64,000 nucleotides of DNA from Bryum argenteum (Eukaryota > Streptophyta > Bryopsida > Bryales > Bryaceae): contig CM073322.1 of NCBI GenBank assembly GCA_037043015.1, forward strand, positions 19,603,601-19,667,600. Direction: 5' to 3'. The notes beneath the pieces are model-generated. The model had not been told where the DNA came from, ran no database searches, and was given only the letters and a program-made list of their open reading frames with translations. Numbering within the stretch: the first letter of the stretch is position 1; every line of letters begins with the position of its first letter. Below are positions 3,417 to 63,635 of the stretch, in pieces. Both the position numbers and the translations under genes were made by a program.

Positions 3417-3811
3417 AATTTAGAGAAAATTACTTTCCAAACCGTGATAAGAAGTTGCAGTAAATCAAAAAAGTAAGTTAGGGAGGGAAAGTAAAATAGT
3501 TTCAAGTAACCACAACAACAAACATGATGGTGAAAAGGACTAGGACATATAATGACAAAGGCATCCCAATTAAACATGCATGAAACCAAATAATTATTTT
3601 ATTATTGGAGCCTATTTAAATATGATGAACTTTAAAAATGAGTAAAGAACTCAAGTGGGACTTAGAATCTTGGTTTTTCTTGTGGAACCCATATTGAAAT
3701 ATTATGGCACCTCAAAGACACTTTGAAAATTTACAACAAGAAGAACAACCACCCATTGTCACATAGGTTAATGTGAAATAATCTGCCAAAAATGTTTTAT
3801 TTTTCCCTTAA

Positions 3812-4747
3812 CCCCTAAGCATACATGAAAATCGATTTGGTTTTTTGAGATTTCGAGCAGCTCATTTTAAGGGTTTAAATTGATATTTTTGCGTAAGATT
3901 TTTACTGGGGGCTCCCCATATTGTAATGTGTATGTGGTTTAATTTCAATTTTAAAACCTTTGTATAGAAATTTTAGGTTTCAAGTCCAAAACCGGCAGTT
4001 TAATTTAGCTTTTTTGAGTTATTCTTTATTGGCAATATGTTCATTACCAAATTACTATTCAAATTCCAAAAAGTCCAAAGTCAAAAAGTTTACCAATTGT
4101 ACAATGGTAGCCTCCAAAACTTTCAAAAACAATCTTCACAATTTCTACTAATTTTACAATTTTTTCTTTCAAAAATTGCCAGAATTTGAGACTTTGGATT
4201 TTTTCCAAGATTTTTTTTTTGAAATTTACATACTCTTAAAGGGCACCTATTCACCGTTCAATTTTTCTTGAACTAAATATATTATATGTGGTGCTTGTTT
4301 TACTATATTGTTGTTTTTAGACCTTCTTTCATAAGATAATGCACATGAAGGTCAAAAACATGGAATGAGTATCTAAAATTTTGCAGAGCGTACCCAACTT
4401 GATTACCTACATGGGAAAAAAATGAGGGAAAATTGATTGGAGTAACAATCATCCCATTGCCCTTGGCATCATGTAGACAATGCCTCTCGGGCAATGGCAA
4501 AAAAAAGTGTTGGACAAACTTTGATCTTTACGGTCTCACAAATGACAAACATCCAACGGTTGAAATTTTTACCGGTCCTTTGTATACATGTTAGGTATAA
4601 GATCTTACGGTTTGAAGTCTACAACTATGAAAAAAATAAAATAAATAAAAATAAACCACCATTTCCCCATTTCCCCATTTCCCAACGAAGGTGAAAAATA
4701 GCAGTTTTTGGTTCTAGAGGTCAAGAAAATGCTTAGAGTTTCAGGGG
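3812..4747 (+). repeat. TTAA element, family B (~935 bp)
   Basis: Flanked by TTAA at 3808-3811 and 4748-4751. The 5' tip is CCCCTAAGCATAC and the 3' tip is GCTTAGAGTTTCAGGGG. It shares nearly its whole length, in the same orientation, with 62700-63631, including CAAGTCCAAAACCGGCAG and TCATTACCAAATTACTATTC. No transposase is encoded. Open frames inside are short and not shared with the second copy. Confidence 0.8.
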
Positions 4748-4751
4748 TTAA

Positions 4752-5971
4752 AGAACTAGTTACCCATTCTACAACAAGAGAAAAAAAAACTTTTTCTCCA
4801 ACTTTGAGTATTCAGATCACACAATTGCTAAGGAATTCGAGTATGAGATTTGATACACATATACGCATTCAAGTTAAGTACTCGATATATGGTTATATAC
4901 CTAAAAAATATGTCGAAATTTGAAACTTTCACTTTGCATAAAATAAAATAAATAAAATTTCGCGGGCCTAGAGTCTTTTTAGGGGTTTAATGTGAATGCA
5001 AACAATGAAGAGAATTTACTATAAAAATATATACTTGTATAAAACAATGCTTATAAGGGTTTTGTTTTGAGGTTCGCTTTTTAAGTTTTATATTTGGATT
5101 ACAAATTTTCAATGCTGAAAATATTTTACTCTCACAAAATAGCAGTCCACGTTTTCACTTTATTTGTTGCCTAAGTGCAATAAGACCCTTTTTTGTTTTT
5201 TTAATTTATGTTCTTAAAAACCAAACAAGGTATAATTGAAGAATGCATCATTACCCACACCCACCCAAAAAAGAGCTTGTAGAGGCTCTCAATACTCAGA
5301 GTCACACCAATTATTTATTCATTATTATATATTCCTATAGCCAATAAATGTACACCTATTTTATGAAAAGACACTTTCACGTCAAAGCATTTACTAGGAA
5401 TTAAAGTTACAAAAGGAACAACAACCCACACTCCACATGTGTGTGTCATGCATTTAATTACAAGCCACCACACCACAATTCTATTGCTTAAAATATTAAA
5501 TCCAACATGTGTCAACAACGGAGGGGTCATCTTTTTACCATTCAATGCATGGGAATGTGGGAAAGCCCCCTCCATTCCTCACAATCAAGCCCCATACATT
5601 AAGTTGCATGACATTAAATTCTCCTACTTGGTAACATTAATTCATGTAAGTTTTCAAATGATCAATTAATTTGGCTAAGCACATGGTAACTTAATTGTGG
5701 GTGCCATTAAGTTAGTGTAAATCTAGTTGCCAGGATTCTCAAAGTTAATGAATTGGGAGTTTGTTTGATTTTAATTTGGTTGGTTAAATTAATCTCTTTA
5801 AGGGGGCCCCATTAGTCTTTGGGAAATGGGAGGAAATAATGGTGGCAGTGTTGGCTCACCGATTTTCTTCCGTACGTTAGTGTGTCTTATACTATTTAAG
5901 ATATGCCCCTTGGATGTAAGCGCCCACTTCGTAGTATGACAAACTTGGTCTAGGTGTACTTCTATGGGAAA
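4752..5971. other. AT-rich intergenic DNA, no gene seen
   Basis: No recognisable gene or clean element. Two overlapping open frames on opposite strands at 5315-5669 are reverse shadows with no family match. Confidence 0.5.
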
Positions 5972-5975
5972 TTAA

Positions 5976-6397
5976 CCCTTAAACGCCCAAGCAAGCGCGA
6001 GGGGCTTTTTTTTCCAAGAGAATCTGCTCTGTAGATCTCACTGTACTCAACTTTTCACTTATATTTTGATGTCAAACTGGTCACCTTCTTATGAAAGTGA
6101 AATTTTACATTCGAATCACAATTTGTATGAGTGATTTTGTGCTTTGAAAAGATTGTGGTAGGTAAGGTAGGAGTGGCTAAAACCGTCCAGCCCCAAAAAC
6201 CGCACAGCAGGGTTCAAATATTCATAGGAAATTATAGGATTACTCAAAAAATGTCTTTTTTTTTTGGGATGGATTTGCACTAGCTTTGCAAACTGTCAAA
6301 AAATAATTAATATTTTACACCACTATTCCAAGTATGCAAAGCTGAAATTCGGACGGTTTTTGGGGCTGGACGGTTTTAGCCACTCCTACCTTAAGGG
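5976..6397 (+). repeat. TTAA element, family C, interrupted by a MITE
   Basis: TTAA 5972-5975 then CCCTTAAACGCCCAAGCAAG; the 3' tip is TTAAGGG with TTAA at 6398-6401. The body (TATTTTGATGTCAAACTGGT, TGATTTTGTGCTTTGAAA) matches the 361-bp copies at 44005 and 56767. After GTGGTAGGTA the sequence switches to a separate MITE (6165-6391), and only the last few bases of family C remain beyond it. Confidence 0.8.
6165..6391. mobile_element. MITE with TA target duplication (Tc1/mariner-like), 227 bp
   Basis: The ends are near-perfect inverted repeats of about 38 bp, beginning AGGTAGGAGTGGCTAAAACC and continuing through GTCCAGCCCCAAAAACCG. The element is flanked by TA on both sides (6163-6164, 6392-6393). 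A second copy lies at 36559-36784. It is non-coding. The TA target and short length suggest a Tc1/mariner-mobilised MITE; the tips are not those of classic Stowaway. Confidence 0.88.
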
Positions 6398-7342
6398 TTA
6401 ATTTACATTACTAAGATTGATATCACAAGATATTAAAGAAGAAGCTTAAGGGTATGATATTGCGGAATAATTCCTAAAAAAAAAAGAGAGAAGTCCAAAT
6501 CGGGTCCATTCGCTTAACTACTAAAGTCTGACTTGCCTCGAAACAGCCAAAAAGTCAGAGAATTGGCAAAAACTACGCTCTTTTAATCTAAGGTGAATAT
6601 TTTAACGTACTTTTAGGGGAGTAGTTGTAAGGTGAAGTATCCAACTTGTATGTGTATATGTCTATCGAATCTCATATTCAAATTTCTTATGGATTGTGAA
6701 ATCGTGATGTTCAAAGTTGCAGAGAATGTTTTTTTCTCGTCCTGTAGAAAGAATAATCTAGTTTTTGAGGTTGAAAAAATCGTTTGGTGAAAAGTTTGAT
6801 ATAAGGCCCTTCATATTCTAGTTCCTAGGTGAGTTAGGAACATGTCTATGCAATTTTTACCCACATACAAACTACAAAACTTTAAAAAATTATTGATTTT
6901 TTTTTATTGAGGTATATTGAAACTCAAAATTTGAAGGCCTCTATTTGAAAATAAAAATGGCATGTGAAAAATCATTGGATTCAAATTCCAAACGCTGAAA
7001 TTAAGCCTTAAATCCTTATTTACATGTACAAAAAACAATGCTTGAAAAAATGTAAAATCTCAATTTTTGGTGAATTTTTGAAGTTTTGCAATTTAATTGA
7101 TTTTGGGCAGATTTTAGGAATAAATGAGTATATCCTGCAGTTTGGGCAGTTTAGGGCAAATTTCAAATAGTGTTTTTAAACTCAAATTGTGAATATCTCT
7201 TAAAGTATGAGGAGTTTTAAAATGTAAAATGACTTTTCTAAAAGGTATAGAAAAACTCTACAACCCACCAAAGGATTCAAGTTCATACGAGCTAACAAAA
7301 GCCAAAATGCACACTATGACCTTAGCGACTTTAGGGGGCTAA

Positions 7343-8290
7343 CCCTAAATGTGCCAAATGTCAAAATCGACATTTTGGACATTTTAGAAACTTTGATAAG
7401 CATTGACTTCTAGAGTTCGTTTTGGATATAGGGTAAAAACCTTGAAGAGCCACAACCTCTTCATCAGTAGTCCGTTTTGGATGAAGTCACTTGGGTTGAG
7501 TACCAAATCAAGTCTACTTTGTTTGGTAAAAACTGCATACCGATAAATTGAAGTAGGAATAAATGGCATGCATCATAGTAAAGGCAGCTCTTGTTGTTGA
7601 GCTTTCTAATATGGGGCATGTTTTACCATTGTTAGGCAATTGTAAGAAAATACAAAGATGTTATCATGAACTTTTTTTACACTCTAGATCTAAAGATGAA
7701 GGCTAATAACTTTCTAGTTGGATGATTTTGATCCAAACACTTTTGGTCGTGAATTTGCTATGATGTTTCCGCATTGAAAAAACTGAATAAATGGATGTTT
7801 TTTGAGGAGCTATATCTCCATCATCCACGGTTGGATTTTGAATCTACTTTTTGGGATGAATTGCAATTGGAGTCTAGTTTTAGTAGGAGAAAGCTTGACA
7901 AGATTGAAGATGTATTGAAGATAAGGCATAGATTAGAGTGTAGGGGGTATAGATTTGGACAATTTTTTCTTTGTAAAATGTTTGGCATTCTTCACCATTG
8001 CAAGGCCATTATTTGTGCAAAGAAATTCTTATCTTGAGTTCTTTTAGTTCAAGGGTATCATTGAGGTGAAGTTTGACAACTTTGTAGTTGGGGGGTTTTT
8101 TCATTGCAATTGGTAGCATTTTTACTTCAAAGTGAAAATGCTTAGATTTTGTGATATTTTTGAGTACTAATACGTTATGATCTCACGATCTGTGAGGCCT
8201 CGTGACTCAAATTTTATCCCACATGATGTACATTATGTCTAGTACAAGATATCTAGTACATTATCCCAACCTCTAACTTTTCTTAGAACC
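7343..8290 (+). repeat. Family A TTAA element, diverged copy
   Basis: Begins CTAA then CCCTAAATGTGCC and follows the 34266-35237 copy through CGACATTTTGGA, the AATGATGTTT region and TTATGATCTCACGATC. It keeps an 87-aa open frame (7774-8037) at the same place as the 82-aa frame of the cleaner copies. The far end is lost near 8290, where other repeat DNA begins. Confidence 0.7.
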
Positions 8291-8515
8291 AAAAATGGAT
8301 TTTGGAGGTTCACGCATTATACCTCCAACTTTGACCATCATGATCTCATAGATGAAATAAGAATCAAACGATTCAGATCCGTTGAGTTAACTTTGAGATT
8401 CTATGGTTGAGTCATGTTTATAATACCTAGATTGAGCTTTTGTAGGTCCGAAATAGAAGAAGGTCATTTTTGTAAATTAGGCAATTTTGCACCAAGGTTT
8501 AAAAGTACGATGGCA
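8291..8515. repeat. Eroded family D-like repeat
   Basis: Scattered family D landmarks (TTTGACCATCATGATCTCA, AGGCAATTTTGCACCAAGG) without clear ends. Compare 39222-39486. Confidence 0.4.
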
Positions 8516-9479
8516 CATGTTTACAAGGAAAAGACGAGTCTTTGACTCAAATTTATCACACTAGTACTGTAGCTAGTTTTGTGGGTATTAGTGGAGTTGC
8601 AGGAATTTGATTGGGTTGACTGGAAGAAAATTTACGATTGGTGGGAAGTGGAAGATTTTCTTTAGACTGGACGCTGATTTCTATAACCAAATATAAAGTA
8701 AAGTACTCAGACATATCATTCATTTGCTCAGGAGCTTCGGTGCATTCAATGGCTCCTCCCCCCAGAGCCATTACACATGAGAAAGCTCACCCAAACTTAG
8801 TGTTTGTCTATATTCGTCTCACAATAACAATACTGGCCAGCCATGTATAAATACGGAAATAAAAAGAGAATGTATCTCACTCTGAGAAGTTTCAATAATT
8901 TTGCAACCAATAATTATGTGTCGGAACTTGAAGCAATGCAAAGACATGCGGAAGGGACACTTTACATGGGCAGTCAAGTCGTTTATAAGCCCAATGGAGG
9001 GCGGAAATTCCTCTCGGGTGATTAGTTCATTCTTCGAAGTTCACCAATCACACGAGAGGGAACTTTTTTCCTCCTTCCGCCCCATATATAAGTTGATTTT
9101 CCATAGAAAGCGTCCCTAAGAAACTCAGGAGTTATGATAAAATGTCTTATTACTAATAATAAACGCAAAACGGTAATCTTTGTCCTTAGTTTTTGATGCA
9201 TAGTGGCCACAAAACCCATACATACAAACAACGCTTACTAAGAAAGTATGAAAATCCAATAAGACAATCCAAGTTGGAAGTTCCTTTCTCCTAAACGAAA
9301 TTTAAAAAAAAAAATGCAAGGTGGATGTATACAAATGGAAGGATATTTTTAGGTGAGGAATATAGACTCACCCTCTTTTGTCCATGTACTACTTGGTGCA
9401 ATACATTCTCCCAAAAATTCCCCTTGCAAAAATCTGGGCAGCACGGGCAGCAGGAGGAAAAAAAAAGACGGAACGTTTC
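8516..9479. other. Intergenic DNA upstream of the JASON-like gene
   Basis: Many short overlapping frames on both strands, none with a recognisable product. No element ends are seen. Confidence 0.5.
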
Positions 9480-9852
9480 CCGAGTTGTCATGGTGATGGT
9501 GGTGGTGGTCGTCGTCTGTGGGCGTCTGTCGTGATTCTGGAATTCTCAGAAAGGGCGCCGCCATCTTCGCCCGTTCGCTACTGCTGGCTCGGTCGTCCGC
9601 CTTCCCTCACTCCCAAATTTGGGCTCCAAAGCAACACACTGCAAGGGCATTATTGTATTGGATCAGGCATAGCTTAGAGTAACCCAAGCAAGCAAGCGAA
9701 TAGAGCAAGCTTTCTCTCCCGATGACATGGTCAGAGCACGCACACGAACGAATATCTCCCTTATCGCCCTGCCCCAGCGCCGCTACTGACCTAACGCACT
9801 TGCTTCATTCCCTACAAGCATGAGTTGACGATTCTGGCTCTGGCTCTGCACG
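9480..9852 (+). promoter_or_regulatory. Probable promoter / 5' UTR of the JASON-like gene
   Basis: The 370 bases ahead of the first ATG are clearly richer in GC and CpG than the AT-rich repeats upstream, with several CG dinucleotides between 9510 and 9600. This fits the start of a transcription unit. I see no convincing TATA box, so the transcription start is not placed. Confidence 0.4.
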
Positions 9853-13105: not shown

Positions 13106-13109
13106 TTAA

Positions 13110-14084
13110 CCCCTAAACGTCCCAGCCTATTTTTAGCAGAAAAGCACATTTCCATAGAATTCGTCATAAATGAAAATCAAGAGAAGCTATTAAGATCTCA
13201 ACCGTACAAACTTGTAATGGACTTACTGAAGCTCATGTGGACCAAAATTTGAGTCATGAGGCCTTATAGATCGGGAGATCATAACATATTAATACTAAAA
13301 ACAAACTGCAAAATTTCATCATTTTCACTTTGAGGTGGAAATGCTACCAATATACCTATTGCAATGAAAAAATCACCAACTAGAAAGATGTTCACCTTCA
13401 TCTTAATAAGTCCTTTACCCAAAAAAAATTCATCAAAAAAATTTCTTGGCTCAAATAAAAGCCATGCAATGGTAAAAACTACCGAAAATTTTACAAAGGA
13501 GAAATAGTCCAAAATTGGACCCTTTGCATTCAATTTCATGCCTTATCTTCAAAACATCTTCGATCTTGTTAAGGTTTCTACCACTTAGACTAGACTCTAA
13601 TTGGAGGATATCCCAAAAAATTAAGTTGAAATCCAACGGTGGATGAAGGAGATATAGCTCCTCAAATATCATCCATTTTCTCACTTTTTTTGTTGACAAA
13701 ACATCATTGCAAAGCCAATAGCAAAATCATTTGGATCAAAAAACTTCTTACTACAAAGTTGTTAAGAATCACCTTAAGATCATGACCATGAAAAAAAAAA
13801 AACACTAAAAACTATTTTTGGTTTCACATAATTGGCTTGCAATGGTAATACATGCCCCATGCTTGGAAACCCAAAAACAAGAGCTGTCTTCACTAAAGTG
13901 CATCCCATTAATTCATAATTTATTGTATGGGCTTGCAAATTTTTACAACACAAACTAGACTTGATTTGGAACCTAACCCAAGTGATTTAATCCAAAACGG
14001 ACCTCGGATGAAGAAGATATGGCTATTCGAAGTTTCTGCCCTCCATCCAAAATGTAGAAAAACGACATTGGGGACGTTTAGGGG
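13110..14084 (-). repeat. TTAA element, family A, complete copy (975 bp)
   Basis: Exact TTAA at 13106-13109 and 14085-14088. The tips are CCCCTAAACGTCCC and GGGGACGTTTAGGGG, a perfect inverted repeat of about 14 bp. It is the reverse complement of 34266-35237 with only scattered differences, so both moved recently. It carries an 82-aa open frame at 13451-13699 on the minus strand, the same frame as in the other copy. Confidence 0.88.
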
Positions 14085-14310
14085 TTAAAGTGCGTGAAAA
14101 TTGTCACTTTAGAGAGCCTACCATAAAATTCGGAATAAGAGGGTTTGAGCCCTTGTTGATCATTACTTCTTAGTGATACTACTTCTTACTAAAAACATAC
14201 CTCGTGTTTGAGTTAATTGAATAAATGTTGGTAATTATGAGAACTTTGAAGGTAGTTGGCCCTACCCTAGAGTGGACATAGAATTTGCAACAACAAGGTG
14301 CACTGGCCAT

Positions 14311-21210: not shown

Positions 21211-21363
<153 letters not shown>

Positions 21364-21424
21364 AATATCATTATGTCATTATGCCAAACCTCTTTTATTA
21401 TACCAAAACAAATTACATTGGTGC

Positions 21425-21495: not shown

Positions 21496-21737
21496 AAAGC
21501 CAACGTGTTCAAAAGAAGTCCGCAGGCATCAAAGAGCCACCGTGGCAAAAACGAGATGCCCAAAATTTGAGGATCTGAACAGAGGAACTCGATCAGCCCT
21601 TCGAATTCCAACAGCAGTTTCGGTTCATCGTTCTCAATTTCGGTGTTTCCGACCCACCGCCTCCGCAGTTGCTGGTGTAGCAATTTAGGGTTCCGTGCCC
21701 GAATCGTTTCAATTCTGTCAACAGAGGCTTGGGAGCC
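21470..21737 (+). promoter_or_regulatory. 5' leader and presumed promoter of the PTGES2-like gene
   Basis: CpG-containing, GC-richer DNA separates the (TA)n run and AT-rich repeat remnant from the first ATG. No TATA box in a usable position is seen. The (TA)72 tract ends about 380 bp ahead of the ATG, so its length could affect this promoter. Confidence 0.35.
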
Positions 21738-23768
<2,031 letters not shown>

Positions 23769-32459: not shown

Positions 32460-32463
32460 TTAA

Positions 32464-32799
32464 CCCTTAACCCCTAACTCTCCTTGTTGCAAATTGGTCT
32501 AAGTCACAAAATTTGACCTTCCTTTAGATTCAGCTCAAAAAATCTCAATCTAAGCATTATTTGAAAGATTCAACCGTAAGATCTCAAAGTTCACTTGACA
32601 TTCATCTCACATACAAAATTTGAACCGTTCATTCTTCCTCATTTGTGAGATTATAATGGTCAAAGTTGGCTGAGATTTTCTCCTGCAGGAACCTCCAAAA
32701 CCCGATTCGGGTTTTAAGGAGAGTTAGGGGTTAAACGTCCAAGCATGCCCCTCGGGCTTGGTTTCCAGTGTATTTTCAGAGGGGCTTGGCATTTGAGGG
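32464..32799. repeat. TTAA mini-element (family E), split by a family D element
   Basis: Outer ends: TTAA 32460-32463 plus CCC, and GAGGG plus TTAA 32800-32803. Without the insert the outer element is about 72 bp and reads CCCTTAAACGTCCAAGCATG at its start, like the intact 60-bp relative at 33418-33477. The insert sits exactly at the TTAA within CCC-TTAA-ACG and has duplicated it. Confidence 0.88.
32471..32730. repeat. TTAA element, family D (260 bp), nested
   Basis: Tips CCCCTAACTCTCCTT and AAGGAGAGTTAGGGG are a perfect 15-bp inverted repeat, flanked by TTAA 32467-32470 and 32731-32734. The body AAGATTCAACCGTAAGATC and GAGATTATAATGGTCAAAG is shared with 43748-44000, 33148-33388 and 37322-37581. 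Confidence 0.9.
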
Positions 32800-32803
32800 T
32801 TAA

Positions 32804-33143: not shown

Positions 33144-33147
33144 TTAA

Positions 33148-33388
33148 CCCCGAAAGGTTCTTGATGCAAAATTGTAAAAATGGACGTTCCCTTACTTCAG
33201 GCCTAAAAACTCTCAATCTAAGAATTATTTGGAAGATCCAACCGTAGGATCTTGAAGTTACCTTAACCTTCTACTCACTTGCCAAAATTGAACCGTTGAT
33301 TCTTCTTCATTTGTGAGATTATAATGGTCAAAGTTGGCTGAATTTTGGACTCCGTAAAGCAGTTTTCGCTTTCCTTGACCTTTAGGGG
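33148..33388. repeat. TTAA element, family D variant (241 bp)
   Basis: TTAA 33144-33147 and 33389-33392. The tips are CCCCGAAAGGTTCTTGATGC and CTTGACCTTTAGGGG. The internal AGATCCAACCGTAGGATCTT and GATTATAATGGTCAAAGTTG match the other family D copies. Confidence 0.82.
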
Positions 33389-33417
33389 TTAAACATACAA
33401 ATTCATACATTTATTAA

Positions 33418-33477
33418 CCCTTAAACGCAAGAGGCATGCTTTTTAGTGTATTTTCAGAGGGGTTGGGCGTTTAAGGG
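33418..33477. repeat. TTAA mini-element, family E, intact (60 bp)
   Basis: TTAA 33414-33417 and 33478-33481. Tips CCCTTAAACGC and GGGCGTTTAAGGG are inverted repeats; the core TAGTGTATTTTCAGAGGGG is shared with 32770-32785. One of the shortest MITE-like units I know how to define, it serves as the empty-site comparison for 32464-32799. Confidence 0.85.
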
Positions 33478-33825
33478 TTAATGGATCCAATACCCCATCA
33501 CACGTTTTGTATTCAAGAAACCAAGTATTAAATTCCATGAAAATTAGTTAAAGTAGAGTATAAGGAACTCAACCTTCTGAACCACCTCATACAAATGGTG
33601 TTGAGAGCTTCTCGATTTGTGTGCATCTTTCAACATGGAAGAAACTAAAATCGACTTAGTTTATGGTGTACTTTGGCACCTACTGATTAGAACTTTAGCC
33701 TATCAACACAAAATAAGCTATAATTGACTTAATGCATGGTCTAGTTTACTACCTACTCATCGACAAGTTAGGCGTTGCAATATATTGGATCAATGTAAAT
33801 CACTGCTTCAAGTGTTTCTAGAGGG

Positions 33826-33970: not shown

Positions 33971-34265
33971 TCGAAAAGTCTAGGGATTTTGAAGAAAAAA
34001 TTTGATTTGCTTGATGGTGCTCTGAGAAACGTTGGTAGCGCTTATTTACAGGCACCCCTATATATTCTTGGAGAAAACATATGCACGGATGGAAAACATA
34101 TACGCCAACTTGCACAAGCGCTTTATCATATGCAACACACCACTATAGGATGATATAACCAATTATAGATGAGACTGTTAAAATATGAACAACCAATCTC
34201 AATAGGAATTTTAAAATCCTTTCAGATAAAACTTTGGTCCTAAATACTTTTGCATACAATATTAA

Positions 34266-35237
34266 CCCCTAAACGCGCCGAATGTCGAAAAACGACATTT
34301 TGGATGGAAGGCAGCAACTTTGAATGGCCATACTTTCTTCATCCGAGGTCCGTTTTGGATGAAATCACTTGGGTTAGGTTCCAAATTAAGTCTAGTTTAT
34401 GTTGTAAAATTTGCAAGCCCATACAATAAAGTATGAATTAATGGAATGCACTTTAGTGAAGACAGCTCTTGTTTTTGGGTTTCCAAGCATGGGGCATGTA
34501 TTACCATTGCAAGCCAATTATGTGAAATTAAAAATAGATTTTCATGATTCTTTTTTCATGGTCATGATCTTAAGGTGATTCTTAACAACTTTGTAGTGAG
34601 AAGTTTTTTGATCCAAATGATTTTGCTATTGGATTTGCAATGATGTTTTGTCAACAGAAAAAGTGAGAAAATGGATGATATTTGAGGAGCTATATCTCCC
34701 TCATCCACCGTTGGATTTCAACTTAATTTTTTGGGATGGCCTCCAATTAGAGTCTAGTCTAAGTGGTAGAAACCTTAACAAGATCGAAGATGTTTTGAAG
34801 ATAAGGCATGAAATTGAATGCAAAGGGTCCAATTTTGGACTATTTCTCCTTTGTAAAATGTTCGGTAGTTTTTACCATTGCATGGCTTTTATTTGAGCCA
34901 AGAAATTTTTTTGATGAATTTTTGTTGGGTAAAGGACTTATTAAGATGAAGGTGAACATCTTTCTAGTTGGTGATTTTTTCATTGCAATAGGTATATTGG
35001 TAGCATTTCCACCTCAAAGTGAAAATGATGAAATTTTGCAGTTTGTTTTCAGTATTAATATGTTATGATCTCCCGATCTATAAGGCCTCATGACTCAAAT
35101 TTTGGTCCACATGATCTTCGATAAGTCTATTACAAGTTTGTACGGTTGAGATCTTAATAGCTTCTCTTGATTTTCATTTATGACGATTTCTATGGAAATG
35201 TGCTTTTATGCTAAAAATAGGCTGGGGCGTTTAGGGG
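34266..35237 (+). repeat. TTAA element, family A, complete copy (972 bp)
   Basis: TTAA 34262-34265 and 35238-35241. Tips CCCCTAAACGCGCC and GGCTGGGGCGTTTAGGGG. Nearly the exact reverse complement of 13110-14084. Open frames of 82 aa (34648-34896, MSTEKVRKWMIFEELYL...) and 86 aa (34808-35068) are shared with that copy. Confidence 0.88.
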
Positions 35238-35304
35238 TTAAATTACAAAATCAACTTATACAAAGATCTGAAAATCCCCATAGAGAAAGGTAATCGCATC
35301 CTCA

Positions 35305-37317: not shown

Positions 37318-37321
37318 TTAA

Positions 37322-37581
37322 CCCCTAAAGGTCCCTGATACAAAATTCTTTAAATTATGAAAAAGAACCTTCTTCTACTTCATGTGCAAAGAAACACAAT
37401 CTAAGCATTGATTAGAAGATCCAACCATAGGATCTTGAAGTTAACTTGACCCTTTTCTCGAATGTCAAATTTGAACCGTTAATTTTTCTCCAATTTTGAG
37501 ATTATAATGGTCAAATTTGGCTGAATTTTCTCCCTGCGGAAATTCCAAGAAGCGATTTCCGCTTTCTTGGACCTTTAGGGG
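37322..37581. repeat. TTAA element, family D (260 bp)
   Basis: TTAA 37318-37321 and 37582-37585. Tips CCCCTAAAGGTCCCTGATAC and TTGGACCTTTAGGGG. Same body as the other family D copies. Confidence 0.87.
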
Positions 37582-37594
37582 TTAATAGGGTTAA

Positions 37595-38173
37595 CCCCTA
37601 ACTCTCCTTGAAGCCCGAAATGAATTTTTGCAATTCCGGGCAGCCTAAATGAAGGGGTTAGAAGTAATATTTTTGCCTAAGAGTTTTATTGGGTCCTCCT
37701 TATACTGCAAAGTGTATGTGTCAAAATTCGCAAAGTCAAATTCCAATTTTTGAGTCTTCTAGGACGACCCTTGGGTTGCAAGCCAAGATGGAGCAGCTTC
37801 AAAAAGTAACTTTTTTGAAGTTTGTTTTTTGAAACATGTTCATTACTAAATCACTACTCAAATTTCAAAGTGAGTCAAGTCAAAAAGTTTACCAATTTTA
37901 CAAGGGCAGCCTCCAAAAATTTCAAAACCAATCTTTGCAATGCCCAAAAAAGCTTGGGAGACAAACTTTGGATGTTATGATATTTCAAATGGTAAACATC
38001 CAACGGTCAATTTTTTGAACAGTAATCAAGCATATTCTTGAGTACAAGATCTTACGGTTGAAAGTTTTAAAAAAGGGAAAGAAATTGGTTCACACCCCCC
38101 ACAAGTGCTTAGAGGTAGAGAATCGCAGTTTTGAGGTTTCAAGCTCCCAAAAAAAACCAAGGAGATTTAAGGG
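37595..38173 (+). repeat. TTAA element, short family B relative (579 bp)
   Basis: TTAA 37591-37594 and 38174-38177. Starts CCCCTAACTCTCCTTGAAGC and ends AAGGAGATTTAAGGG. The internal TCATTACTAAATCACTACTC and AAAAGTTTACCAATTTTACA correspond to family B (3812, 62700), with a large part missing. It begins only 5 bp after the TTAA of the previous element. Confidence 0.8.
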
Positions 38174-38177
38174 TTAA

Positions 38178-42800: not shown

Positions 42801-43743
42801 TTTTGCTGTTATCTTCACCCCAAATCTGAAATTTGAGCCATTTTTGAGCACTCTCCCTTAACCTGATTGCAGCCATACAAAATAATGCTTGTCTTTTGCC
42901 TAATCTATGAGAAACGATGTTTTAACCAAAAAAATAATAAAAAAAAAATTCTTTGCCTCAAGGGGAAGGCACTGTGGTGCACCTACGGCAAATGGCCACC
43001 TACCAGGCGCATGCACTATCAATGCAGAAGTGTACTTTGACGGCTAGTGATGGAAAAGGATTGAAGTTTCCAGAGTTAACACAAATGACACAAAGTTAGC
43101 CATCAAATATCCACTGAGAATGTTGCTTATACTTAGACCTTGCTTCATTCTTTTAAAATGTGATTTCCTCCGAGCAGAGTTGATTCTTGCTCCGACACCA
43201 TACTGCATGCAAACAACTATTTGCTCACCTTGGTACAGGTATACAGCCCTCAACTCATAACCAAATATGGCAAAAGACTTTACCCAATCAAGCACCATTC
43301 TGCATTTAGGTGCAACCCATATCAACTGTTGATAATCCAGATTACATGACGCACCCAGTGTCTCCAAAGTCGCCTGAAAGACTCCATACAATTTGCTAAT
43401 AAACTGTTGAATACAGAATGGCTCATCTTAGCTGCTTGATTATGATCCAATTGCATCTTCGGCTTCCTTCCAGAGGGATTCAACAGCAGCTTGATTATGA
43501 TTGGTGAACCAGCATAAACCCCTCGTAACTCCAAGCAGATTCACATCCAGATGTAAGAAAATCCAGATATTCAGACATTATCCAAGGGATTTTAACTATA
43601 TGAAGACCAGAGCTCAAATTACTGCTTCAAATCCTCTCCCATAGCCATTTCACACACCCAAGGGTCCACGAAGGAGTCAACTGCTACCTGCCATCAAGAT
43701 TTCCAACCGATTTTAACGATTACGAGAGATTTCCAACTGATTA
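42801..43743. other. Intergenic DNA, no gene seen
   Basis: A 115-aa minus-strand frame (43044-43391) and an overlapping 70-aa frame have no recognisable product. No element ends. Confidence 0.45.
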
Positions 43744-43747
43744 TTAA

Positions 43748-44000
43748 CCAATTTTCTTGTTGCTAAACGGTCTAAGTCACAAAATTTGACTTTCCTTCAG
43801 ATTAAGCTCAAAGATCTCAATCTAAGCATTATTAAAAGATTCAACCGTAAGATCTCAAAGTTCACTTGACATTCTTCTCACATACCCAATTTGAACCATT
43901 CAATCTTCATCATTTGCGAGATTATAATGGTCAAAGTTGGCTGAGTTTTTCTCTTGCGGGAACCTCCAAAACCCGTTTGGGTTTAAAGGAAAGTTAGGGG
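43748..44000. repeat. TTAA element, family D (253 bp)
   Basis: TTAA 43744-43747 and 44001-44004. The 5' tip is eroded (CCAATTTTCTTGTTGC); the 3' tip is GGAAAGTTAGGGG. The body matches 32471-32730 closely. It shares its right TTAA with the next element. Confidence 0.82.
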
Positions 44001-44004
44001 TTAA

Positions 44005-54782: not shown

Positions 54783-55353
54783 CTTAGGTTGAGCTTTACT
54801 TCAAGATGCTTCCTTCTAAAGGCTGTTAAACCCAAGAAAATATCCCTTTGGCTCTTTCTTGACATACAATTGGGTCATGACCTTGAGGATCCCCTTATGT
54901 AAGGTGTTTGTTGACTTTAGAGATTGTATCAATTGAGTCAAATTGTATGGATGTTGGTTAGAATATGAGAAATTATATATCACAATAAAGACAAATATGT
55001 ACTATGGATTCATAATACTTAAGACAAAATTGGGGTAACCAAAAGCACTCAAAAATACATATTTCACAATTGCCATTGTGAAAAGGAGGGTGATATAATA
55101 AAGAGTGATAAAGATACTACAAGAAAAAGTGACATATCATAGAAAGCCACCATATTGCATAGCTTAGAACACATTTAATACGTAATTCGTTATAATAGTA
55201 ACATTCACTGATTTTGAGAAATGGGGGTTTAGCTCGAGTTGAGCTAAATGTACCTACAGAGTTGAGCTCAATTGTCATCGATATGATAATTTGAATATTC
55301 CCATTATAACAAATTACGTGTTATTTATAGAACTGAGTTTGCTAGTAATAATC
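54783..55353. other. AT-rich intergenic DNA
   Basis: Inverted repeat TAATACGTAATTCGTTATAA / TTATAACAAATTACGTGTTA (about 55176 and 55303). No gene. Confidence 0.45.
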
Positions 55354-55357
55354 TCAA

Positions 55358-55615
55358 CCCCTAAAAATCGTTGATGCAAAATTGCCTAAATTATTAAATA
55401 TGACCTTCCTCTACTTCATGACCAAAAGAACTCAATCTAAGAATAATTTTGAAGGTCAACCATAGGTTCTTACAGTTAAATTGACATTCTACTTTCATAC
55501 CAAATTTGAACCGTCTATTCTTGTTCATTTGGGAGATTATAACAGTCAAGGTTGGCTGAAATTTCTTCCTGCAAAAACACCAAAACCCCTCTTAGGTTTT
55601 AAGGATCTTTAGGGG
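55358..55615. repeat. Family D element flanked by TCAA (258 bp)
   Basis: Tips CCCCTAAAAATCGTTGATGC and GGATCTTTAGGGG, body as in other family D copies. The flanks are TCAA on both sides (55354-55357, 55616-55619) instead of TTAA. Confidence 0.85.
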
Positions 55616-55619
55616 TCAA

Positions 55620-55924
55620 GAGCAAGGTTGTAGTAGGTGATAAGGTCATGAGATTCTACTAAAGCCTCATCAAATGTATGCCATACAAACTCCTCTCAAA
55701 AGTTCTAGTAACAACCTTTGTCAATTTTTATAATGATTGATAACTCTTTATGGCCTTGCATTTATTTGTATATGAAAAATTATAAAAGGTCACTAGTTCC
55801 ATAAGAGAGTGGATGTGAATTAGCTTATATATTGTAGTAAAAACACGATAAAGTCAACTTGGATTTGTACCACAAGAATCTTGAACTATAATGATTGCTA
55901 AATGTGAAGTAGTAATCTCCGACT
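55620..55924. other. AT-rich intergenic DNA
   Basis: Nothing recognised. Confidence 0.5.
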
Positions 55925-56381
55925 ATAAAGTTGTTCACATTCATCTCTCAACACTCTTACACCAAAACAATCATGATAGAAATTTCTTGACTCAAACAAT
56001 AGCCTTGAAATGGTTAAAACTGCTCCAAAATTCACAACTAGAATTGTGACCAAAAGCAACCCCTTTTCGGTGTCAAAAAGACATGGGAGAAATAACCATA
56101 TAGAAGATCCAAACTAGGAAGTAGGCCTAATTACAATTCTTGGGGCCTCATCATCATGCACTTTTGTTGTCATGGAGGACAAAAGTGCTGTTCTTGTCAT
56201 TTTTTCCTCCTATCCTCCCCTGGACTTGAAAAGTACAAGTCTAGAGTGGCATTTCTTTGGCTTCTGAATTCCTAAGCCTCCCTACAATGGCTCAAATGAA
56301 ATTTCTCTTCGCTTCTCACTTCTAGTGTAAAGCAACCCAAAGTTAAAAGGGCCAAAATCTAGTATCACCCATATTTAGGGG
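55925..56381 (-). repeat. Family A TTAA element, partial
   Basis: AAGTTGTTCACATTCATCT and TTCTTGACTCAAACAATAGC match family A; the 3' tip ATATTTAGGGG is followed by TTAA 56382-56385. The part in between (56050-56340) is different sequence, so the copy is rearranged. Confidence 0.6.
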
Positions 56382-56385
56382 TTAA

Positions 56386-56762
56386 ATCAGACTAGCTATC
56401 AACCAACCAAGTGTAACACTTAATTACCTTTTTTTACCTTAAGTGCTCCTTAGTTCCAAAAATTCATAGTACACACCTTTTCTTCTTGTACAATGGGGTC
56501 CAATAATGTTTTAAATTCCTCTCTGGAGCAGATTTTGAAAAAAGTTCAATAATTGTATGTGTACTCGAAAATGATTGTTTTTGAAAATTGTAAAGTGCCT
56601 TGTAATAATACAATACCATGGCAAAAAATCACTATTTCTTTGTGATAACACTCAACAAATTGGGATTTCTATGTGCATTGTATGCCGTTGACTACCTCAA
56701 CTTATTGCTTCAATTACAACGTTCATTTCACTTGAAAATTTGATGTGTTTTAAAAGTTGTTC
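56386..56762. other. AT-rich intergenic DNA
   Basis: Nothing recognised. Confidence 0.5.
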
Positions 56763-56766
56763 TTAA

Positions 56767-57127
56767 CGCTTAAACGCCCAAGCAAGCCCGAGGGGCATGA
56801 TTCCAACAGAATCTTCCCTGTAGCTCTCATTGTACTCAACATTTCACTTATATTTTGATGTCAAACTGGTCACCTTCTTCTGATGCATTCAAAAGTGAAA
56901 TTTCACAATTCAAATCACAATTTGTATGAATGATTTTGTGCTTTGAAACGATTGGGGTAGGTAGGTTGGGGTTGTACATAACCTTGTAGGAGGCCGCAAG
57001 CTCATCATTGATTGGTCTATTCATGATGCCCAAGTTCAAAAAGTGCACTATTCATGATGCCCAAGTCCAAAAGATGCTGTGATCCAATTTTGGGCTGCCC
57101 GTTTCAGACCCCAGGGGCGTTTAAGGG
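56767..57127 (+). repeat. TTAA element, family C, complete (361 bp)
   Basis: TTAA 56763-56766 and 57128-57131. First bases CGCTTAAACGCCCAAGCAAG, last GGGGCGTTTAAGGG. Same length as the 44005 copy and differs at only a few sites. Confidence 0.9.
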
Positions 57128-57131
57128 TTAA

Positions 57132-58694
57132 GATACTTGAGCTCATTCTTGATGATTCATTGATTCATTTCTTGTTTATTTTTTTACCTTAGAGGTATTC
57201 CTTAGAAAGTCCTAATGACCAATAAAACTTTATATAAACCTTTGAAAGCCCTTCACACTGGTCACTACAAATTTTCAATGTGATAGGTATTGTAGTACAC
57301 TCCGATGTGATTACACCGCACTTCACGGTTCTCACAGATGATTTCTGATTATGCAAGCAACTTTTGAATATCTCAAATATTTCAATCATTTTTGGACATG
57401 AGTGTACAGTAAGAGATGAATCATGATTGATGTGAACAACCTTTCTAATTCATCTTCTAACTAAAATATTGTAGTAACATGAAGAGAAACAATCTGCAAA
57501 ATTGAAGCCTTCTAAACACCAATTCACTACATTGTTCAAGATGGAGATCTTTCAATAGTATTGGAATCAATGATCTTGGTAAATATTCATGTCTCCAGTA
57601 GAAATTTATAACATATTCAAATCTTAGATATACCTAAAACTAATTAACAACTCTTGTGCATGTAAAACCTGATAAATATGGTTGGGTGGATAAACTTCCA
57701 CGCTGGATCTCTAGGTAAAATGCCTTCATAAGGCTGAACATTATTAGAAGGCTCAATATTATCATCTCATGAAACATGGAACTGACTTATTTTAACATGT
57801 GACTGAGTCATATGTGACTTGGCCTGCCTGTCTGTCTGAAGCCTATCCGCTTCTAATTCAATCCCTGTGAACTAAATCAGGCTGTGTACACTGATATTCA
57901 ACAAGCCAACTCAGCTCTCTTGAATATAAAAAAAATTCTCATCATCGGAACCCATCGAAATCAGCACCCATACTGAGAAGGAAGAAAAATGGCGGATTCC
58001 ACACAAGAAAGGGAGCAATTAAAGAAAGAGAAGCTACTTCAGAGTATCTATTTCGTAATAAGTAGATTCCTTTTCTTTGCTCTCTACTAGAGATGGTTCC
58101 GCCGTGCTGAGTGACTTACTTCAGTGGATTTCTACCATGCTTGATGAAATAAGAAACTCTTGATAGAAGTATTGATGACAAGTTGGGTGGAAGTATCACA
58201 CTTCTTTGCTAGCACTAGCTCACAGCAATAGCAAGCAATTTAGATAGAAAGTGCAACCAATCTCACTCAATATGACTCACAATATGACTCACAACACACT
58301 GGTAGAAAAGTGGCTTGAGAACACCACACACTATACTTAAGAGTACAAGACAGTGCTACTGTGACAATTAACATCCAAGGTGGATATAAAACGCCTCTGC
58401 ATTTAATTGGGGTGTATTCATGTGGTATACTGACGCCACTTTTCTACTAGTGTCAAACTTAAACATGAAATGAAACATGAAATCGAAGACAATGTGCATC
58501 GTTTCTGAGGTACACTTACTGTTAACCTAGATTCCATGAGGTTAGTGATCAGACAGTGATGAAAGAGACCCACATGAGCACTTCAAATTCCTAACAGCTC
58601 ATTACATTCCGCTGCAATAAGAAAGATATGAGGAATCCCTAAATTGCATTAGAGTCTGCAGCATGCATGTATGGAACAAAAGCCAAGACACCAT
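57132..58694. other. Intergenic DNA, no gene seen
   Basis: Unique, AT-rich. AATATGACTCACAATATGACTCACAA is a small direct repeat near 58268-58292. No product recognised. Confidence 0.5.
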
Positions 58695-58820
58695 CATCGA
58701 CTGGATCACACCCTACATTCTGCAACAATGCTTTAGCACAATTCAAGTACAGGCATCGACTGGAACACACCCTACATTCTGCAACAATGCTTTAGCACAA
58801 TTCAAGTACAGGCATCGACA
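58695..58820. repeat. 59-bp tandem duplication
   Basis: Two copies of CATCGACTGGATCACACCC ... TTCAAGTACAGG differing at one base (T/A), plus the first bases of a third. A short (GA)n run follows at 58851-58865. Confidence 0.93.
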
Positions 58821-61514
58821 ACAGTCTACAAACAGCAAAAAAAAATTAAAGAGAGAGAGAGAGAGTTGATAATCACGTGAGTTATGAGGAGACGGGTGTA
58901 GTTTTGGAGAGTAATTGAGTAATTATGGGTGTTATTTGAGGGACGGACGGGAAGTACATTTGGACTGGGGACAATGGGAGCATCCAGATCGTGCGCATTC
59001 GTCCTGGAAGCAGGAAGTCGAACGGCCGTCGAAAGAGGACGTGAAGGTAGTAGAAAGGGAGACAGCAAGCGACACTAGTAAATTCGAACTACCGCAATCC
59101 TCACCGATCACATGGATCAACATTCTACAACTAGCCTGATGACAACTCAGATTTGGAAAAAGCACGTCGTGGTTCGTATATATAACTCTATTTCAATGAT
59201 CCGTCACTAATCTTTCTTTCGTAAGTTAGCCTAGCCCCGGGACGTATATTACTACTATTCTCGAGAATTCCAAGCAGTAAATCCACACGAGCTTCGTGTT
59301 GTAACTTCTACCCTCCACAAAGTTACATGAAGTTGAGATGTTACGAGATAATCGATGATATTCGGTGAGCTAGCTCCAGCATCTGTTCGAATGAGCCGTC
59401 AGTCAGATCGATTCATGAGCCGCGCATCATACCGACTATCTTCTTTCTTTGTATCCACTTGGCAGTTGAGCCTTTCCGGTGTCGGGAGGGTTGCAAGTTA
59501 TGTTGAAGAATTCACGTTCGTAGGACCCAACCTGGCAGAATATCAACAGAGTACCAATTTTCACGACTAGTTCTAGTACCAGTAAGAAGAAAAACCTCAC
59601 AATCGGTACAGTTTCATTCTGGGTAATGAATCAACCCATCTTCAAAGGTCCTGCTTCTGGAGCTCTCAAATGAACACCGACACCACTCTAATGAGTAAGG
59701 CTACAAAAGTGCTATATTACTACTGTCAGAACCAAAACTTTCGGTTGGAATACAAGTATTTTGAGGTTGAGAGAAAGCGGATACTCTATCGGGGTTGGAG
59801 TGTAGGTTTGAAGCAAATGCGAAACACGAATAGTCTTCTTTAGGCTGATGCTAAGTAAGGATGGTTTCAACACGAAAGAGACGCTTACATGGTTGGTTGA
59901 GTCTACAGTCGTCGGTCGCGGACGTCTAAGTTGGGTAACAGGCGGTCCGAGCTTAGAGAGGCGAAAAACGACGTTGATTTGCGGAGATGCGTGCTGTAGC
60001 GTCGGTGGTGATCACAGCTTGCACGGCTTGGAGCAGCATCCATTCCACTACAACTGATAGTTGCAGTCAGCTTACTAGCGATCAACAAACAAAGCCGCTA
60101 TCGCTCCGAAAAAACAAAACAGCGTACGATCACAATTTCGAACAGACCAGGCCGGCACAAACGATGGGATAGATATGAGGCCAAACGCCTGCGGCCAGCC
60201 AGCCAGAGATGGATGGATAGATAGGTATCAGCGAGCAGTAAAGCCACAATCTGAGGATTTGTGCAACAAGCCCCGAGATTAGAGATGTTGAGCAATCTCA
60301 CGCAGCCTCTTATCTGACCTGACTTGTTCAGGTTATATACATCGATCTGGCTAAGAACAAAAAGGGTAAAAAATCGATAGCTCTAGCTCTTCAATGCTTT
60401 TACCCGAGCTCGCGAAGGCATCGATCCCAATTGACCAAGACTTTGTTTACCAGAGTCAGAGTTAGTTGAATCATGATGAGTCACAGAAGCGAGGGTTCAG
60501 TGGAGAGATGTTGGAGGTACAGTGCCAGATTGACGTTTGCAGGCCAAGGACAGGCAGACACACTAGGCGCTCTGATTTGAAAGGACCCACCGCCTGACCT
60601 TTTCAGACAGTCCTTTTTGACCTTTCCTGAGAGATTTATGTGTTAGCTAGCGCCCAAGTACAGTACACAAATCTGCAAGCTTCGATCAAACTGATCTCAA
60701 AACAAACTTACTTACTTTGATCAAGTCGTCTAATTACTGTTCTCATCCCGACCATGTGTCGCCCTCGTAGTACCATGCATCCTGAGCCATGCTATCTATT
60801 GTGGTGTTTGTGGCGAATGTGGCCGATGAATAAAAAATTGCCAATGAGTCCGCCGGGGGTGTCGGTTGCCGTGATCTAGACACCAGCTGTAAGTTACACG
60901 AATTCAGGCTTTGATGATCATGCTACCATTTCAATATGTCTAATAATATTGCAGCACTGGATTTCTGTGAATCATATGGACCACATTCTAGTGATAGATT
61001 GTGTACGCCACCATCCTACCCATGCAAAACAAAAATATCCAAAACTTCGCGGCGTGTACTAATTCTGCAAAGATTCCATCATGGATGACCCAGCGACCCC
61101 TCCCTCGCAGTATTAATATATCTCATTATTGTTCATGCAGTTTTCTATAAACTCCCAAGTATGGTTACTACTGGAAACCCGGCTGTCCCGGCAATCAGCT
61201 ACCGTCGCACTGTTCATCGTATCTCAGTAACAGGATAGGTATGAGCTAGCTACGTGGAATGCCTACAGGTACCTCATAGCATTCAATTATTCCGCACGGT
61301 CGTAGGTGCTCCGTTCCCACTTCCACGGTCCCATCTCGTCGTTTCATGTTGGGAGCAGCCCAAGAGCATAGGGCTCCACCCATCCACTAAACCCATGGCC
61401 CAAGAACTTTTGTGCTTTTTGATATTCCCTGCCCTAGCTTCCACTCATCTCTACATTGAAGTGTTCCAGTGGCCAATTTCAATAACTCGATGTCAAAGTA
61501 AACAAGTTACTTAT
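58821..61514. other. GC-richer unique DNA without a recognised gene
   Basis: Similar in base composition to the gene islands. Short overlapping frames only, the longest 87 aa (61254-61517), none with a family match. No known miRNA core found by eye. Confidence 0.4.
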
Positions 61515-61745
61515 TAGAAAACTAGAACATGCAAATCAAGGGAGAAGTAGAGATAGAGGGAGAAGCAAGCGGAATCATCACATCTTACTATACTCTTTCT
61601 GAAGTTGGAGGTATAGGTGTTCTTAATTTAATGGTGCTCTAAAGTGATACCCTATAATGTTTGCAATGAATACATGGTACTATTGCATGGAGTCTAATCT
61701 ATTATGTACATGTAAGTGAAGATGAATAAAGCTCCATCACGTTAC
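61515..61745. repeat. Dispersed repeat matching 41930-42180
   Basis: GAAAACTAGAACATGCAAAT, GTATAGGTGTTCTTAATTTA and CATGGTACTATTGCATGGAG follow the order of the left arm of the element at 41885-42800. Confidence 0.65.
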
Positions 61746-62423
61746 CTACTCCACTTTAAACGACTCTACTATAAATTAACCTCTAAAGGAGAAGCTCAAC
61801 AGTTACCTCCAAACAGCCATATCTGAATTCAGCAAACACAATATTTTAGAATTTTATTTTGGGAAATTCAACAATAAGGTCTTGTTTACAATTGTCTAAT
61901 TACTTTGCCCATCAACTTTTATCAGATTTTTACCATATAGATCTTGAGATACATTGAGTCAAAGTTTCAATTTTTATGCAAACAACATGTTATTAATGGC
62001 TCTTTGGAGCATTAGGGTTAATGTTTCAAATCATACTCCACATGACTAGTTACTTGAGTCTAGGTGGTAGAAATTGGAAATTCCCTACATAAGCAAGTAC
62101 GCGAACTATAGCTGTTGTTCGACTTTCATGCCATCTCGGTACAATCGAGGTACACATTCAACCTCTGGCCACGAGCTTCTTGTGTCGTTTATATATAAAA
62201 CAATCGAATCGTTTCGAGCAACTTGAGTAGGCTTCGTTCCCCAAGGAGAGACCACCAATCTAATTACTTTCAGAAAAATCTTTTGACATGTTTGGTTGTT
62301 CAGGAATTACTGCAGTCAATCCTCTTTTATCTATGAGGTCTATTGTGCTAAAGTGACCTACGACTCTACGAGTGATTCTTTTTGAAATCGATGTGTAATT
62401 GTTTCTTACAAAATTGAGTATTC
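61746..62423. other. AT-rich intergenic DNA
   Basis: Nothing recognised. Confidence 0.5.
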
Positions 62424-62560
62424 TGAGTATTTTGACCTTCGGATCTTGTTCAAGAATGTTTAATCTTCAAGTTTTATTTGATTTGAAACGTTTAAACGTT
62501 TGAGTATTTTGACCTTCGGATCTTGTTCAAGAAACGTTCAAGTTTTATTTGATTTGAAAG
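62424..62560. repeat. Local ~70-bp direct duplication
   Basis: TGAGTATTTTGACCTTCGGA followed by TCTTGTTCAAGAA and GTTTTATTTGATTTGAAA occurs twice, the second copy slightly shorter. Confidence 0.88.
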
Positions 62561-62699
62561 TAATGATCTTGAAAGATATTTAAGATTTAAGGGGTCTGGT
62601 GTAGTAGCCTTGGCTACAATTGCTTGGAAATGGTGTGCAAAAATTCTTGTTAGTAAGCTTGCTAAAGAACCTAGTAGGCCTAGACGGCAAAACTTTAAT

Positions 62700-63631
62700 T
62701 CCTAAAAATCTAGGAAAACCAATTCAGTTTTCTGAGATTTCGGGCAGCTCATTTTAAGGAATTAAATTGATATTATTGCCTAATATTTTTACTGGATGCT
62801 CCCTATACTGTAATGTGTATGTGGTAAAATTTGCAAAGTCAAATTTTAATTTTATAACCTTCATCTAGAAATTTTAGGTTTCAAGTCCAAAACGGGCAGT
62901 TTAATTATTTTTTTTTTTTAAAGTTTTTTTTTTTTTTTGGAAATATGTTCATTACCAAATTACTATTCAAATTCCAAAGTATCCAAAGTCAAAAAGTTTA
63001 CCAATTTTACAAGGGCAGCCTCCAAAACTTTCAAAAACAATCTTCACAATTTCGAGTAATTTTACAATTTTTTCTTTCAAAAATTACCAAAATTTGAGAT
63101 TTTGGATTTTTTCCAAGATTTTTTTTTCAAAATTCACATTCTCATAAATGCACCTACTCACCGTCCAAATTTTTCTCAAACTAAATATATCATATGTGGT
63201 GCTTGTTTTACTATATTGTTGTTTTTAGACCTTCTTTCATAAAATAATTTACATTAAGGTCAAAAAGTGGAATTGGTCTCTAAAATTTTGCATGAGCGTA
63301 CCCAACTTGATTACCTACATGAAAAAAAATGACGGAAATTTTTTTGGAGTAACAATCATCAAGTTGCCCTTGGCACCATTTGGACAATGCCTCTCACGCA
63401 ACGACAAAAAAAAGTGTTGGTCAAACTTTGATTGTTATGATCTCACAAATGACAAACATCCACCGGTTGAAATTTTGACCAGTCTTTTGTATACAAGTTA
63501 GGTACAAGATCTTACGGTTCAAAGTCTAAAACCAGAATAATAAAGTTTCTCCATTTCCCCATTTCCCAACGAAGGTGAAAAATGGCAGTTTTTGGTTCTG
63601 GACGTCGAGGAAACGCCTGGATTTTTAGGGG
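62700..63631 (+). repeat. TTAA element, family B (932 bp)
   Basis: TTAA 62696-62699 and 63632-63635. The 5' tip is TTCCTAAAAATCTAGG (first bases mutated from CCC); the 3' tip is CCTGGATTTTTAGGGG. Full-length match to 3812-4747 in the same orientation. Confidence 0.82.
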
Positions 63632-63635
63632 TTAA

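Follow-up and report, generated by a model that had tools for sequence, protein, structure and literature searches.

The analysed stretch, a window of 64,000 nucleotides from the moss Bryum argenteum (contig C2, positions 19603601–19667600, of a 258.8 Mb genome in 25 contigs), carries five families (A–E) of short TTAA-flanked elements with common CCCYTAAA...TTTARGGG tips. These are best explained, with a probability of about 95%, as non-autonomous piggyBac miniature inverted-repeat transposable elements (MITEs) moved by the transposases of endogenous 4.5–8.4 kb piggyBac lineages, the CCC tips of which are slightly lineage-specific. Near-identical copies among the long elements show that movement is very recent. 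A piggyBac origin had been proposed in an earlier note on this DNA, and the transposases of the genome and the long elements with such tips support it. The CCC...GGG ends would be bound by the transposase, which would excise the element, presumably precisely, and reinsert it at a target of 4 bp that is duplicated and in nearly all cases reads TTAA; present-day transposases may act on the MITEs in trans.

The left tip TTAACCCYTAAA occurs exactly six times in the window and the right tip TTTARGGGTTAA 11 times. Six pairs of exact tips lie at most 1.1 kb apart, five of which delimit single elements (A1, A2, C1, D3 and E1), while the sixth spans D3 and B3 and is not one element. One hundred dinucleotide-preserving shuffles of the window gave a mean of 0.04 tips and no pairs, which confirms the boundary pattern described in the earlier note. 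With up to two mismatches, 22 left and 26 right tips are found, against eight and seven for the reversed patterns; part of this looser list is therefore due to chance. Including both TTAA, the lengths are 983 and 980 bp for A, 944 and 941 bp for B, 369 bp for two copies of C, 268 bp for D and 68 bp for E, and subtracting 8 bp from the longest or typical copies reproduces the body sizes reported previously (975, ∼935, 361, 260 and 60 bp). The reported total of about 20 copies is reached only by counting fragments: 15 copies are listed (two of A, three each of B and C, five of D and two of E), together with A-like fragments. Imperfect ends are common, with altered tips in B1, B2, C2, D1 and D2, length variants in B3 and C3, no left end in D4, E2 interrupted by D1 and TCAA rather than TTAA flanking D5.

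Genome-wide, TTAACCCYTAAA is found 23,184 times on both strands (11,520 + 11,664), compared with 401 times for the reversed pattern (207 + 194). Among the 100 matches listed, neighbouring pairs at most 2 kb apart face inward in 14 cases and outward in three (∼0.7 expected for each), and the inward pairs include sizes of 264 and 268 bp, 930–936 bp (three) and 978–982 bp (four), matching D, B and A. Tips of the type found in PB1, one of the transposase lineages described below, occur 5,945 times (TTAACCCTTAAACG) against four for the control; the 100 matches listed (94 on contig C1 and six on contig C2) form 23 inward pairs and one outward pair at most 6 kb apart, with sizes among the inward pairs of 242–243 bp (six), 370 bp (eight) and, once, 5,199 bp (the long element L010). 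Pairs of 242–243 and 1311–1315 bp represent additional MITE size classes in the genome beyond the five families of the window.

A search for a DDE_Tnp_1_7 transposase and for longer elements with these tips had been suggested, and both are present. Twenty transposase loci were read over 6.9–11.7 kb; 16 are bounded at both ends by CCC tips, giving elements of 4.5–8.4 kb that enclose a DDE_Tnp_1_7 domain with conserved aspartates. Homology between copies begins or stops at the tips or a few bases from them (L009/L010, L019/L020, L021/L029 and L062–L065). L009 (4,950 bp) and L010 (5,199 bp) resemble each other inward from the left tip and again as far as the right tip, but differ over an internal stretch; L019 (5,758 bp) and L020 (5,469 bp) are alike in blocks that begin at the tip and stop at most 2 bp from the tip; and in L021 (6,570 bp) and L029 (5,474 bp) homology likewise extends to the tips. 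L018, L024, L028, L016, L011 (8,392 bp) and L037 (7,623 bp) are bounded through homology or matching inverted tips; several left tips are possible in L018, L016 and L019, and the choice follows homology or the inverted match. The tips vary by lineage (CCCTTAAA, CCCCTAAA/C, CCCCTCAA, CCCCTGAG, CCCCAAA and CCCTGGAA, with CCCCAAAA as a further reading). A link to the plant telomere heptamer CCCTAAA, to which the earlier note had drawn attention, is rejected as incidental, since the PB1, PB3, PB4 and L011 lineages have tips without this motif.

The flanks of the 16 bounded elements are TTAA/TTAA in 14 cases, ATAA/ATAA in L063 and CTAA/TTAA, with CTAA at the left end, in L029. Because ATAA lies on both sides of L063 and TCAA on both sides of D5, the duplication is 4 bp and the ends begin at CCC; the flanks are thus target-site duplications, as the note had supposed. 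A 1,083-bp insert in L021 (3296–4378 of the joined sequence, numbered in the direction of the transposase) is absent from L029. An occupied versus an unoccupied TTAA site was considered as the reason for this difference and rejected, since the insert has CACTA ends (CACTACAAGGA...TCCTTGTAGTG) and a 3-bp repeat; presumably it is a CACTA-type element inside a piggyBac element. A- and B-like fragments fall inside it.

A genome profile search with DDE_Tnp_1_7 (PF13843) scored 116 of 776 first-look candidates, all above the cut-off (best 7 × 10−82; open frames of 447–1,331 codons), with no match in 14 control genomes; 93 of the 116 have no stop inside the match. Among solved structures, the L062 frame matches piggyBat (phmmer, 3 × 10−28) and 6x67 (4 × 10−25), the latter taken to be Trichoplusia ni piggyBac, and DDE_Tnp_1_7 is the sole Pfam family above the cut-off in each of four long frames. 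In 30 fetched domains the first catalytic aspartate is always present, the second in 29 (glutamate in L015) and the third in all 30 frames (recognised by pattern in 28 and by eye in L010 and L011). As candidates for the C-terminal cysteine-rich domain of the superfamily, CxxC...C patterns are visible by eye at the ends of many frames (e.g. L012 and L019) and are missing in the L022, L025, L033 and L062 frames. Single linkage at 60% identity divides the 30 domains into seven groups, namely PB1 (nine loci), PB2 (12 loci), PB3 (L016, L023 and L037), PB4 (L017, L021 and L029) and the single loci L011, L015 and L035, so that of the single piggyBac-type system envisaged previously the piggyBac character stands and the singleness does not. 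Several pairs are 97–98% identical in protein. The ratio of nonsynonymous to synonymous substitution rates (Ka/Ks), computed with stop codons skipped, is 0.05–0.14 in the seven of 16 tested pairs whose Ks could be measured and exceeds 0.3, one of them being close to saturation. At 12 loci examined, the DDE domain has 200–500 codons of potentially translated open frame in front of it, the upper figure marking where the DNA read ends; this portion is similar within lineages and weakly so or not at all between them, and in four frames it contains no Pfam domain above the cut-off.

Terminal sequence held in common connects four of the MITE families with particular lineages. The ends of C1 match those of L009/L010 (36 bp at 92%; 41–44 bp at 86–88%), those of B3 match L028 over 169 bp (68%) and 216 bp (74%), a pattern expected of an internal deletion, all five D copies have matches in the 3′ subterminal region of PB2, with the last 37–46 bp of three of them matching the PB2 5′ end, and E has only its tip sequence (17–27 bp) in common with PB1. 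Judged by these matches, the ends of C and E go with the PB1 lineage and those of B and D with PB2. The statement in the earlier note that the bodies differ is therefore qualified, with PB2-type sequence common to B and D and PB1-type tips common to C and E.

Nested insertions bear on the target. In the window, D1 occupies the TTAA that lies within the E2 tip; genome-wide, the corresponding junction TTAACCC-TTAACCCYTAA occurs 431 times (control 32) and the far-side junction TTTARGGG-TTAA-ACGCCC 162 times (control 0). In the range listed for both junctions, 26 of 41 right boundaries are paired with a left one, and the inserts, assigned to families by size alone, are A-sized in seven cases (978–982 bp), C-sized in six (369–370 bp), B-sized in three (921–937 bp) and D-sized in two (268–269 bp), 18 of the 26 in all. 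Since the pre-insertion sequence is a PB1 tip with one TTAA, elements of A–D sizes duplicate TTAA precisely. Split PB1 tips number 431 against 5,945 intact ones, for which ACG was required after the tip (6.8%), compared with eight split and 621 intact copies (1.3%) of a single control TTAA within the body of A; the odds ratio of 5.6 (P = 3 × 10−10), or about fivefold, refers to this single body site, unmatched in age and local sequence, and the reversed split pattern is itself found 32 times. This comparison suggests that the TTAA inside the PB1 tip is an insertion hotspot. The outer TTAA is common to two back-to-back elements at 273 places (∼1.2% of the 23,184 tips). A tentative extension, regarded as possible rather than probable, is that a native and presently moving plant piggyBac uses the PB1 tip TTAA (TTAACCC-TTAA-ACG) as a preferred landing site, killing or stacking its own copies and thereby limiting itself.

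Several observations weigh against the proposed origin. Tips are present in the 1.5-kb 3′ flanks of nine of 30 transposases, which is significant relative to the genome density (P = 0.0002) and not relative to the tip density of the window itself (P = 0.15), so that the argument depends on the elements bounded at both ends. Four of the 20 loci read are not so bounded (L033, L035 and L023 show a 3′ tip only, L015 no tip), and among the 16 bounded elements there are four near-identical copies chosen for their equal scores. A stop lies inside 23 of the 116 scored transposase matches, the C-terminal part is lost from some frames, and Ka/Ks is 0.20–1.21 in eight young pairs, with one of the 16 pairs unmeasurable. 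Among the nested insertions, 15 of 41 right boundaries have no partner and eight of the 26 paired inserts fall outside the A–D size classes, the largest measuring 6,057 bp. The internal stops, together with the observation that copies in a self-comparison of the window are often only ∼65–80% alike, could also indicate fossil families of a long-dead system. Such a reading is very unlikely given the long copies. Six transposase rows have an equal score, and the four that were deliberately fetched (L062–L065; contigs C4, C8, C9 and C2) are 5.70 kb long and 99.8% identical, with 1–5 mismatches, 6–10 gap positions and differing flanks; because these selected copies show so few mismatches, the movement is very recent. 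In addition to the transposase pairs noted above, 40 full-length or nearly full-length genome rows of family A, A1 included, are 96–100% identical, the 41st being a 75% fragment, in a whole-A search that scored 40 of 6,580 candidates and was unable to reveal a parent; by this identity, family A is young.

The autonomous parent of A was not found among the transposase loci examined, and A has only the tip grammar in common with them, apart from a weak 46-bp match to L020; its other matches there are copies outside the elements (in the L033 and L037 flanks) and the fragment in the L021 insert. A different superfamily that duplicates TTAA, as Kolobok and Sola3 do, might therefore move A while piggyBac moves the remaining families. 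This is improbable, since the first 14–15 bases of A, including TTAA, are those of the 3′ tip of piggyBac locus L035 and A-sized inserts lie in the TTAA of PB1 tips with exact duplication; a further piggyBac lineage would then move A. Tourist MITEs of the PIF/Harbinger superfamily, which are likewise short plant elements with inverted ends and an AT-rich short target, have a 3-bp duplication (TWA) and a DDE_Tnp_4 transposase. If these or mariner-like elements (TA) were responsible, TTAA would be seen only through target context, and at TTAA targets T-TA-ACCC...GGGT-TA-A is indeed indistinguishable from a 4-bp duplication. The genome is rich in PIF/Harbinger transposases as well (420 candidates, of which 150 were scored; one of 14 controls), and in two of the four scored loci read, over 4.9 kb each (L072–L075), such tips lie nearby: L073 has inward-facing TTAACCCC on each side of the transposase, and L072 has one tip downstream with no upstream partner within the 4.9 kb read. 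The ATAA/ATAA flanks of L063 and TCAA/TCAA flanks of D5, however, fit a 4-bp duplication, and a TA or TWA duplication is rejected on these grounds. The TTAACCCC copies of L073 are not the element end, since they are enclosed by overlapping inverted repeats, of 137 bp with 93% identity and of 707 bp with 99%, that extend outward beyond them; L074 and L075 have no such tip, and none of the four loci is shown to end at these tips, leaving Harbinger unsupported as a source in the loci read. With 16 long elements bearing such tips and encoding piggyBac transposase, an origin from Tourist-like or mariner-like elements is extremely improbable, and the tips remain linked to the superfamily named in the earlier note.

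The elements agree with T. ni piggyBac and piggyBat (chains 6x67/6x68 and 9c0f) in a DDE_Tnp_1_7 domain with conserved aspartates, CCC/GGG ends and TTAA duplication, and differ in the 200–500 codons of open frame before the DDE domain, in their land-plant host and in the variation of the tips with lineage. They are also longer (4.5–8.4 kb) than the known ∼2.4 kb given in the excerpt of PMC2874221. In the portions available of the papers cited here, piggyBac is known from plants, fungi and animals (PMC10140906, PMC10813416), its plant members are described as present and probably inactive (PMC2874221), the superfamily is listed in a plant review (PMC10794571), and repeat tables give 1,230 PiggyBac copies (0.00% of the genome) for the fern Ceratopteris (PMC6890710) and one copy of 75 bp for the grass Stipa (PMC8319324). 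A match in a moss genome paper (PMC10619864) was discarded, the word in the matching text being 'piggybacking'. The coral CMITEs, according to the portion of PMC2872659 available, likewise comprise several MITE families ascribed to piggyBac machinery, one apparently piggyBac-like-derived, but belong to an animal and have interiors more conserved than their ends, whereas here the ends tie families to lineages. The insect piggyBac tool in rice (excerpts of PMC4309413 and PMC5505980) indicates that excision works in a plant cell, although that system is introduced and the present one endogenous. No description of an active endogenous plant piggyBac was found in the literature searched, which did not cover one broad survey, and an earlier plant report may exist. 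piggyBac is usually presented as a matter of animals, and the papers cited here mention it for plants only briefly or as remnants. With its several lineages, passengers in the thousands and long copies that are almost identical, this plant genome provides a native source for the study of piggyBac spread, silencing and MITE formation, and allows tests of which MITEs are moved by which transposase. If real, the tip hotspot would be a simple form of self-restraint for a transposon.

Table 1. MITE copies of families A–E in the window; lengths include the flanking target sequences.
Copy	Position	Strand	Length (bp)	Remarks
A1	13106–14088	+	983	Complete; exact TTAACCCCTAAA...TTTAGGGGTTAA
A2	34262–35241	-	980	Complete; exact tips; 95.3% identity to A1
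B1	3808–4751	+	944	One base changed per tip; 83.5% identity to B2; subterminal match to piggyBac element L028
B2	62695–63635	+	941	Mutated left tip
B3	37591–38177	+	587	B-like internal-deletion copy; 1–167 resembles L028 5′ end, 374–587 L028 3′ end
C1	44001–44369	+	369	Complete; exact tips; both ends resemble PB1 elements L009/L010
C2	56763–57131	+	369	Left tip with one changed base; 96.8% identity to C1
C3	5972–6401	+	430	C-like length variant; 5′ end resembles PB1; left tip TTAACCCTTAAACG
D1	32467–32734	+	268	In internal TTAA of E2 left tip; junctions TTAACCC + TTAA + CCCCTAAC ... GTTAGGGG + TTAA + ACGTCC
D2	33144–33392	+	249
D3	37318–37585	+	268	Exact tips; last 40 bp resemble 5′ end of PB2 element L019
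D4	43738–44004	+		Decayed left end; right TTAA in common with C1
D5	55354–55619	+		TCAA both sides, a 4-bp duplication of a non-TTAA target; TCAACCCCTAAA ... TTTAGGGGTCAA
E1	33414–33481	+	68	Exact PB1-type tips
E2	32460–32803	+		Interrupted by D1; left piece 32460–32466, right piece from 32731

Profile matches of other kinds in the genome include 57 GRAS pieces (best 5 × 10−140; none of 14 controls) and 35 dynein heavy-chain AAA_6 pieces (best 5 × 10−75; three of 14 controls matched, below the cut-off). GRAS genes mark land plants and, to our knowledge, flowering plants are without dynein heavy chains. The two sets of matches point to a land plant with flagellate sperm, probably a bryophyte. 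Contig C1, the largest (44.1 Mb), has 2.1 PB1 tips per Mb against 27.2 elsewhere, five of the 116 transposases (19.8 expected) and one of the 57 GRAS pieces (9.7 expected), and is a candidate gene-poor or sex chromosome. At Harbinger locus L073, extended by L076, the transposase lies between the 707-bp inverted repeats of 99% identity (642–1348 and 4899–5601), which are long for such an element. The C1 copy in the window, folded as a single strand, has a z-score of −3.2, which was not used as support. Positions 2315–2557 of the window hold an array of imperfect 10-bp units (e.g. GGAACCTTCC GGAAGTTTAC), and a reading frame at 21681–22112 and 21211–21364, near long A and AT runs, presumably resembles a prostaglandin E synthase 2-like gene.

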